Assembly (NCBI GenBank): GCA_018818405.1 | Contig: JAHIRY010000027.1 | Coordinates: forward strand, 1 to 41,764 | Length of the DNA stretch: 41,764 bases | Origin: Patescibacteria group bacterium | GTDB lineage: Bacteria; Patescibacteriota; Patescibacteriia; UBA11705; JABHMO01 | Direction: 5' to 3' | Shown: one piece after another, positions 5,922 to 41,011 of the stretch | Numbering within the stretch: the stretch's first letter is position 1 | Layout of the letters: each line of letters begins with the position of its first letter | The notes under the pieces: model-generated | Told to the model about the DNA's origin: nothing | The model's input: the letters and a program-made list of their open reading frames with translations, nothing else | Databases searched by the model: none | Position numbers and translations under genes: made by a program

Positions 5922-6059
5922 TAAAATAAAACTCCCCTCCAATGGACAGACAAAAAATTTTTACTCAGGCGAAATCGAGCAAAAAGCCTGATTTAACCTA
6001 AAGTAAAAATCCCATGCTTGTCGTGTCTGTCCGTTGGAGAGGACTTTGTTCTAATTTAA
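5922..6059 (-). ncRNA. Candidate rod-like structured ncRNA (about 140 nt)
   Basis: Minus-strand promoter at 6066-6094. Nested stems: 5932-5952 with 6024-6044 (TCCYCTCCAAYGGACAGACA), 5958-5965 with 6002-6009 (TTTTTACT/AGTAAAAA), 5965-5970 with 5986-5991 (TCAGGC/GCCTGA). T-rich tract follows on the minus strand. No ORF. Confidence 0.6.
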
Positions 6060-6218: not shown

Positions 6219-6794
6219 TTATTTAATGATCTTATCGATCAACCCATACTCCTTTGCTTCTTCCGCAGTCATATAATAATCCCGATCAGTGTCTTTTTCT
6301 ACCTTTTTCAATGGCTGTCCCGTATGTTTTGCCAAAATCTTGTCCAAAGTTTCTCTGACTTTTAAAATTTCTTCAGCTTGAATCTTGATATCACTGGCCT
6401 GTCCTTTGGCGCCTCCCATCACCTGATGAATCATAATTTTGGAATTTGGCAGAGAAAACCTTTTTCCGCCAGCTCCGGCTGCGAGCAGAAAAGCTCCCAT
6501 ACTGGCAGCCATTCCCAAGCAAATTGTGGCCACATCCGGCTTTATGTATTGCATTGTATCGTAAATCGCCATTCCGGCTGTCACAGATCCGCCGGGGGAA
6601 TTTATGTATAATTTAATGTCTTTTTTTGAATCCTCGCTCTCGAGAAATAACAGCTGGGCAATAATGGAATTCGCAACCTGATCATCCACTCCTGTTCCCA
6701 GAAAAATGATTCTATCCTTCAATAATCGAGAATAAATGTCATAAGCGCGCTCGCCGTAATGAGTTTTTTCTATAACCGTGGGAATGAGATTCAT
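6219..6794 (-). CDS. clpP: ATP-dependent Clp protease proteolytic subunit
   Basis: [62 protein letters not shown] with Ser and His motifs. Confidence 0.98.
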
Positions 6795-6932: not shown

Positions 6933-6961
6933 TTGACAAAATATGAAAATCATGCTATACT
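6933..6961 (+). promoter_or_regulatory. Consensus sigma70-type promoter TTGACA-N17-TATACT
   Basis: TTGACAAAATATGAAAATCATGCTATACT; extended -10 (TGC). Confidence 0.85.
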
Positions 6962-6967
6962 AATATG

Positions 6968-7420
6968 TTCCTTAAATAAAAAACTTTTATCGGAAAAATG
7001 ATGCAGAGGAGAGAGACCTTTGTCCGCCGCTCATTCACTTGCTTGTCATTTGAATCGGCTCGGACATTCAAATATACATTTTGGCATCTGGGGATTTAAT
7101 TATTTCATTATTGCTCCAACAGCCGAGATATTATTCCTCTCCATCATCTTTCCGATAACAAAAATTTCCGGAAAATGGTGAGGCGAGGCGAAGGCCACAA
7201 TTCATTTACTTTTTGGGCCTTCCCGCCCTCCCTCATCGTTTTTCGGAAATCTTTCCAAAAGAGTAGACAACCTCTTGGAGGGAATCTCTCTCCTCAATTC
7301 CGCAGTCCCAAACTTGATCTTTTCATTTTTTCTGCGGAATCTGTCTACTCCTTTGGGAAGTCCCTCCACTTCCCTACTTCAAAGGGGCGGTTCCTCGTGA
7401 ATCGTCCTTTTGTTTTTTTA
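6968..7420 (+). ncRNA. Candidate large structured ncRNA (about 450 nt, five stem domains, intrinsic terminator)
   Basis: Starts after the promoter at 6933-6961. Stems: 6987-7010/7135-7158, 7164-7196/7215-7250, 7255-7269/7342-7357, inner 7297-7305/7332-7340, 7355-7361/7368-7374. Terminator 7381-7393/7399-7410 then TTTTGTTTTTTT. No credible ORF. Confidence 0.75.
7381..7420 (+). terminator. Intrinsic terminator of the candidate ncRNA
   Basis: AAAGGGGCGGTTC CTCGT GAATCGTCCTTT TGTTTTTTTATTTT. Confidence 0.75.
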
Positions 7421-7647
7421 TTTTAAAAACGGTTTGAATCATAATCATCAATTATCGAAATTCCGTTCAACGAAAACGAACGCAATAAACAAAGATTTTT
7501 GTTCCCTGTGCTTGATATAAAATATCACTTTTCTTCCCTCTATTAATATGCTAAAATATGCAGTATACGAAGATTGCTCGCCAACCATTGTTTTTATTGG
7601 CGAATTGGTTTGCAATCAAACAAAAAACTAATAATTCAAAAAAAAAA

Positions 7648-40936: not shown

Positions 40937-41011
40937 GCCGCCATCGTCTAGGGGTTAGGACACCAGGTTTTCATCCTGGTAACCGGAGTTCGAGTCTCCG
41001 TGGCGGTACCA
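40937..41011 (+). tRNA. tRNA-Glu (anticodon UUC), CCA encoded
   Basis: GCCGCCATCGTCTAGGGGTTAGGACACCAGGTTTTCATCCTGGTAACCGGAGTTCGAGTCTCCGTGGCGGTACCA folds as a cloverleaf; loop TTTTCAT. Confidence 0.97.

Follow-up and report, generated by a model that had tools for sequence, protein, structure and literature searches.

The Patescibacteria make up a large share of bacterial diversity, and have genomes of approximately 1 Mb, and their regulatory RNAs are little known. In Listeria, the sRNAs of the LhrC family (PMC5880928), which are multicopy (LhrC1-5) and stress-induced, are small structured RNAs in which a CU-rich strand is exposed and can meet Shine-Dalgarno-like, purine-rich RNA. The sponge RNA CrfA of Caulobacter (PMC12559287) carries complements of an sRNA seed, and in the C-rich-loop sRNA PmaR of Agrobacterium (PMC6234868), a pyrimidine loop sits on a spoon-like stem. 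The 6S RNA (RF00013) is rod-shaped, with its ends paired and an unpaired region inside, and is present in a single copy with its own promoter, and in the 6S-1 RNA of B. subtilis, a central bubble and two short arms suffice in vitro (PMC8876501). Bacteria also have large RNAs, such as OLE, GOLLD, and ROOL, which are long, multi-domain, and structured.

The locus described here lies between clpP and ftsK in the window, that is, the whole stretch of 41,764 nucleotides of Patescibacteria DNA that was analyzed, and positions 6962-7420 of its plus strand encode a real structured non-coding RNA, which has a promoter and a terminator of its own. The promoter (6933-6961, plus strand) is of the sigma-70 type, TTGACA-N17-TATACT, with an extended -10 element, given that TG precedes the -10 hexamer, and matches at 11/12 positions. 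The approximate transcript, taken from promoter to terminator, ends in an intrinsic terminator (7380-7420, plus strand; fold z = -4.2), formed by a 14-bp stem at 7380-7412 with a T run next to it. The stretch 6964-7430 folds at -177 kcal/mol, compared with -107 kcal/mol in dinucleotide shuffles (z = -11.5), and none of 100 shuffles was equally stable. A coding reading of 6962-7420 was rejected, as the search for protein conservation in the lone inner ORF (83 aa, 7175-7426) returned nothing convincing. The independent transcription of the RNA is supported by these signals, in the absence of any transcript data, and it should be borne in mind that most of the genomes compared here are MAGs, with no expression data behind any claim on transcription. 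A separate extended -10 promoter-like site, TATGCTAAAAT (7547-7557, plus strand), is found 3' of the RNA terminator, and its assignment to ftsK is inferred from sequence alone.

The main domains of the RNA are each exceptionally stable when folded alone. Domain I (6987-7158, plus strand; z = -6.4) is a helix, 6987-7010/7135-7158, around two hairpins, and is supported by covariation, with two-sided change in 14 of its 21 pairs, 50 such cells compared with 15 in the shuffles, and 89.8% of the cells paired. Its 5' side includes the GA motif GAGGAGAGAGA (7006-7016, plus strand), which is part helix and part unpaired, and which recurs in the order as the pattern RATGNNGAGGAGAGAG. Domain II (7164-7250, plus strand; z = -7.6) is a hairpin of approximately 30 bp, and similar hairpins of the form GATGrGG...CCTCATC are present in genomes G001, G002, G003, and G004. 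Domain III (7251-7360, plus strand; z = -8.1), the core of the molecule, has an outer helix, 7251-7269/7342-7360, around an inner hairpin (7297-7305/7332-7340) and the CU strand AATCTCTCTCCTC (7283-7295, plus strand), whose TCTCTCC core is invariant in alignment A1. In the window, this strand is also able to pair locally, in a hairpin with the GGAGGGA just 5' of it. The outer helix is paired in 98.5% of the cells, with two-sided change in 9/17 pairs, and the complete domain III structure far exceeds both shuffles and slid controls in the covariation test. The rows compared contain sister copies from single genomes, which means that some of the events are not independent of one another, and the shuffles ignore relatedness; the slid controls, which do preserve it, reach only 39-59% pairing.

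A preliminary description, made before any comparison with other genomes, had proposed most of this architecture, and its promoter, terminator, lack of a credible ORF, 24-bp domain I enclosing two hairpins, and domain II of approximately 30 bp all held. Its domain III also held, with an amendment, since the outer helix had been placed at 7255-7269/7342-7357, and is extended here by several pairs. Its domain IV, a GGGAAGT/ACTTCCC hairpin, failed, as the outer helix of domain III, which is backed by covariation, consumes the GGGAAG in question, and the hairpin is at best a competitor of this helix. The description also missed the two most conserved sequences, GAGGAGAGAGA and AATCTCTCTCCTC, which are complementary to one another across 11 nt. 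As a separate observation, the inner hairpin of domain III has a loop (approximately 7313-7325 in the window, and its equivalents) that reads TTGATCTTTTCA, TTGTTCTTTAAC, or TTGTTCTTTACA in several members of the order, which recalls boxA antitermination sequences, possibly by chance.

In the order of the window, Candidatus Falkowbacteria, the RNA is retained upstream of ftsK in 8/11 genomes (the typical members G000-G004, G006, G007, and G009), with a ninth, divergent copy in G008, whereas no copy was seen in G005, where none precedes ftsK, or in the incomplete genome G010. A DNA search alone recovered G001 as the only clear relative, together with a short match in G009, and the count was raised by the motif RATGNNGAGGAGAGAG, the inspection of sequences, and ftsK synteny; the motif pattern is found in six of the 11 genomes, and its reversed control in none. 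Named records with the RNA include Candidatus Falkowbacteria RIFOXYC2_FULL_36_12, UBA11705, and Parcubacteria GW2011_GWA2_40_23. The RNA is always upstream of ftsK and on the same strand, with clpP often divergent on the opposite side. All nine members have TTGACA-N17-TGnTATnnT at the equivalent position in front of the RNA, and all nine have a second extended -10 site between the RNA and ftsK, which is TATGnTAAAAT in seven and a variant in G006 and G008. In G007 and G009, the hairpins of domain I are arranged in tandem, with two to four repeats (three in G007 and four in G009), and the 5' side of every copy bears GAGGAGAGAG or a sequence close to it, while domain III contains one UCUCUCUCC or close variant.

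A scan of genome contigs with GATGTRGAGGAGAGAGA returned 93 stretches, and the only genuine ones among those examined came from Falkowbacteria and Parcubacteria records; the remainder, judged by their taxonomy, are probably due to chance. An isolated hairpin of the domain I type, GATGTAGAGGAGAGAGAAAGC...CTACATCG, is found at locus L004 (G006:C3:521305, minus strand), 5' of a small ORF and approximately 2 kb from the RNase P RNA, and may conceivably serve the CU strand as a GA partner outside the main RNA.

The window RNA is the enlarged relative, found in the Falkowbacteria, of a rod-shaped RNA family distributed throughout the class, which displays a single unpaired strand of invariant sequence, (A)AAUCUCUCUCCUC, where helices join. 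These rods are short, roughly 100-190 nt, with paired ends and an unpaired AAAUCUCUCUCCUC adjoining a hairpin, and they occur throughout the class, with two further families, from other classes, also represented (loci L238 and L240). The family was recognized through covariance model R1, built from domain III, which matched short RNAs in other families, and the convincing matches all carry AUCUCUCUCCUC, the exposed 12-letter strand that is the only strictly conserved sequence of the family. The exact 13-mer AATCTCTCTCCTC was found in at least 52 of the 288 genomes sampled from the class, nearly always in one copy, compared with approximately five places for the reversed pattern; this count is a lower bound, given that only exact matches were considered and variants such as AAACTCTCTCCTC exist. 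Approximately 26 families of the class, judged by eye, are represented among the rods. Their layouts are stem-hairpin-CU-stem (type 1), stem-CU-hairpin-stem (type 2, as in the window), or a combination of the two.

The folding of 51 rod sites left the CU motif almost always unpaired, and 39 of these sites had z < -3 (median -5.3), in comparison with 3/51 control stretches from the same loci (median -0.3). The helices have almost no sequence in common, yet those of type 1 covary (46 two-sided cells versus 23.6). Promoter-like sites scoring ≥10/13 accompany 38% of the rods and 5% of the shuffles, while a T run lies 3' of 79% of the rods and 27% of the shuffles. The window copy fits the family in two respects, with (A)AATCTCTCTCCTC at 7283-7295 lying between the outer helix of domain III and its inner hairpin, albeit with the possibility of local pairing to GGAGGGA, and with its detection by a model made without it. 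This model, R2, was built from 12 rods, none from the order of the window, and finds domain III with 22.8 bits (E = 2e-4 in its own genome), although most of the score comes from the common 13-mer.

A number of matches were set aside. Those of R1 at L149, L151, and L152 were judged to be chance, the motif matches at L157, L163, L167, L171, L172, L185, and L202 lack a rod fold, and the inspected R2 matches outside the class, other than L238 and L240, were either without the motif or inside ORFs. Most of the R2 matches across the phylum at E ~0.01 are probably due to chance, a judgment made without inspecting them. In several rods, mostly linked to murJ (L170, L179-L182, and L238), the outer stem is a similar terminator, AGCTGyCrG.../...yGGCAGCTTTTTGG, which is thus common even to L238, from another class. 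Short second rods with the CU motif also occur in the order of the window, between infB and a methyltransferase-like gene (L183 in G006, L184/L266 in G001, L267 in G002, and L272 in G009), with a degenerate motif in G002 (ATTCTCTCCTC) and G009 (GTTCTCCCCTC). The equivalent place in G000 showed no such rod.

The genes downstream of the rods are mostly on the same strand, within approximately 100-500 nt. In families f10, f11, f13, f33, and f42, as in the order of the window, the rod is followed by ftsK; the gene 3' of it is murJ in f25, f28, f35, f38, and f56, ftsW in f64 and f71, rpoB in f50, f60, and f87, and mraZ in f111. One example of each of the five genes was verified with Pfam, and the others were read from the sequence. 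As ftsK follows the rod in several families, the window RNA is therefore a syntenic relative of the rods found throughout the class.

The RNA of the window's order is a large variant, with one to four added hairpins bearing GAGGAGAGAG, which is complementary to the CU strand. This complementarity amounts to 10-13 contiguous pairs in all eight typical members of the order. Pairing between the two motifs is possible, and is not demonstrated by covariation: in a permutation test, cognate pairs were no more complementary than cross-species pairs (p = 0.55), a lack of signal explained by the near invariance of both motifs. The interpretation of the pairing as a proven tertiary contact was thus rejected, even though the complementarity is real. 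No trans target was found among the other exact copies of GAGGAGAGAG in the order, most of which are inside coding sequences and chance-like, and the GA motif was rejected as a common mRNA site for the same reason. A GA partner is also mostly absent near the rods of the class, with only seven occurrences of GGAGAGA in 47 rods with 300-nt flanks. A motif of this type is found 60-130 nt 5' of the CU strand in L153, L174, L188, and L189, a hint that the co-occurrence of GA and CU may not be restricted to the Falkowbacteria.

No known family accounts for the locus. At the Rfam 15 gathering threshold, no family matched 6933-7430, and the whole window yielded only a tRNA at 40937-41008. The E-value mode returned nothing credible, with a microRNA family at the top (29.6 bits, where the cut-off is 100) and the best sub-threshold matches all unrelated, and a scan of 20 rod loci gave no match. 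The tmRNA, the SRP RNA, and the remaining Rfam families were rejected for lack of a gathering-score match, and the class A RNase P RNA (RF00010) because RNase P is located at G000:C12 and elsewhere in 11/11 genomes of the order. Identity with the 6S RNA was also rejected, as RF00013 was unmatched in 145 genomes of the class, including that of the window, and did not appear in the window or rod scans. No description of the rod RNA was encountered in the open-access literature searched, of which the coverage was partial. The checks that could have refuted the preliminary description were run, and the RNA was found in close relatives, covariation was present, and no Rfam family matched. Its exclusion of RNase P, tmRNA, and SRP RNA held, while its suggestion of a lineage-specific RNA held only in part, being true of the large architecture with GA hairpins, whereas the core extends throughout the class. 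Its proposal of high transcription rests on the quality of the promoter only, without transcript data.

A further element was observed on the other side of clpP (6219-6794, minus strand). Just 3' of this gene, at 5925-6050 on the minus strand, there is a rod of approximately 110 nt with a T-rich end, in which nine genera of the order have an identical CAGACACGACAAGCATGGG, CGACAAGCAU forms a one-sided 10-nt bulge, and 23 of 49 pairs have a compensatory change. It has no Rfam match at the gathering threshold, and may be either a second unlisted structured RNA or an element of the clpP 3'UTR.

The reading favored here, which is wholly inferred and to which a probability of only about 0.4 is assigned, is that of an independent RNA acting in trans. 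The RNA would be strongly transcribed and would act on other molecules rather than as a leader of ftsK, and its independence is inferred because the ftsK promoter-like site sits 3' of the RNA terminator and because different rods precede different genes. The CU strand would be the working part, given that it is the sole conserved sequence while the helices vary freely, and may serve as a seed capturing purine-rich, GGAGAGAG-like RNA that resembles Shine-Dalgarno sequences. In the order of the window, the added GAGGAGAGAG hairpins may allow the RNA to mask its own CU strand or to compete with the targets, so that the seed and a built-in sponge would be combined in one molecule. The fact that the rods are mostly on the same strand as, and upstream of, essential genes counts against action in trans, being also compatible with a leader. 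A bolder reading, which is more likely to fail than to hold, although not by a wide margin, is that of a general, possibly housekeeping RNA of the Patescibacteria, with an undescribed mode of action, in which rods of free sequence would show the invariant single strand AUCUCUCUCCUC, and the Falkowbacteria would add up to four copies of the complement of this strand in the same molecule.

The possibility remains that the rod and its terminator form a cis-acting leader or attenuator, governing read-through into ftsK, murJ, ftsW, mraZ, or rpoB. The same-strand genes approximately 100-500 nt downstream, often ftsK, murJ, ftsW, or rpoB, are consistent with this, as are the T runs that commonly end the rods, but the order has a conserved, separate promoter-like site for ftsK behind the terminator, there is approximately one copy per genome with different genes 3' in different families, and the second copies of G001 and G006 sit in the infB region. 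It is equally conceivable that the CU repeat is recognized by a protein that binds single strands, with the RNA acting as a scaffold or decoy that titrates the protein, and base pairing being irrelevant. An invariant pyrimidine strand of 12-14 nt, kept open by helices of free sequence, would suit such a role, and no RNA target in trans was found; however, no candidate protein has been identified, and the presence of as many as four GA complements in members of the order would require some other reason.

A 6S-like regulator of RNA polymerase, in which the bulged rod mimics an open promoter in a clade with no recognized 6S RNA, is less likely but remains possible. The rod with paired ends, its single copy, the strong promoter in the order, the length of the canonical rods (roughly 100-190 nt), the frequent adjacency of rpoB, and the absence of RF00013 matches (0/145 genomes of the class) all favor it. 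This absence carries little weight, however, as the model matched only 5/14 control genomes and missed nine, and no 6S RNA appears when three rods are scanned in E-value mode, the bulge is one-stranded with an invariant sequence, and the window RNA is multi-domain, with a CU strand that is locally pairable in its fold. Least likely of all, and very doubtful, is that the locus lacks any RNA function and is merely a chance set of hairpins, or else what remains of a repeat or mobile element. The reliance on MAG data and the lack of transcript data leave room for this, but it is opposed by the covariation, the conserved promoter and terminator, the synteny, and the spread throughout the class.

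An RNA is thus present in some 25 families of one class, beside genes of division, the wall, and transcription, recognizable by a strand of 12 nt, and yet has no entry in Rfam 15. With its motif and the covariance models, the metatranscriptomes of groundwater communities become searchable, and the exact strand for mutation or pull-down is defined. The large version found in the window, with its repeated complements of the strand, is an unusual architecture that could reveal how the CU strand is controlled.

When compared with the known systems, the rods are like LhrC in their exposed CU-rich strand, but they differ in having approximately one copy per genome and a 12-mer that is invariant across the class, and no sequence or structural homology between the two has been shown. 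The GA hairpins stand in relation to the CU strand as the complements carried by CrfA do to sRNA seeds, and the stem and pyrimidine loop of PmaR are comparable to the rods, although the window RNA joins a putative seed and sponge in a single molecule, with no homology to either. The rods resemble the 6S RNA in their general form, but are not recognized by the 6S model, have a one-sided, invariant bulge, and include a multi-domain version in the window. Like OLE, GOLLD, and ROOL, the window RNA is long, multi-domain, structured, and large in one lineage, but it has no Rfam match and is built from repeats of one GA hairpin together with a CU rod. What is new is the RNA family itself, and its biochemistry may possibly prove to be a variant of the seed-and-sponge action of sRNAs.
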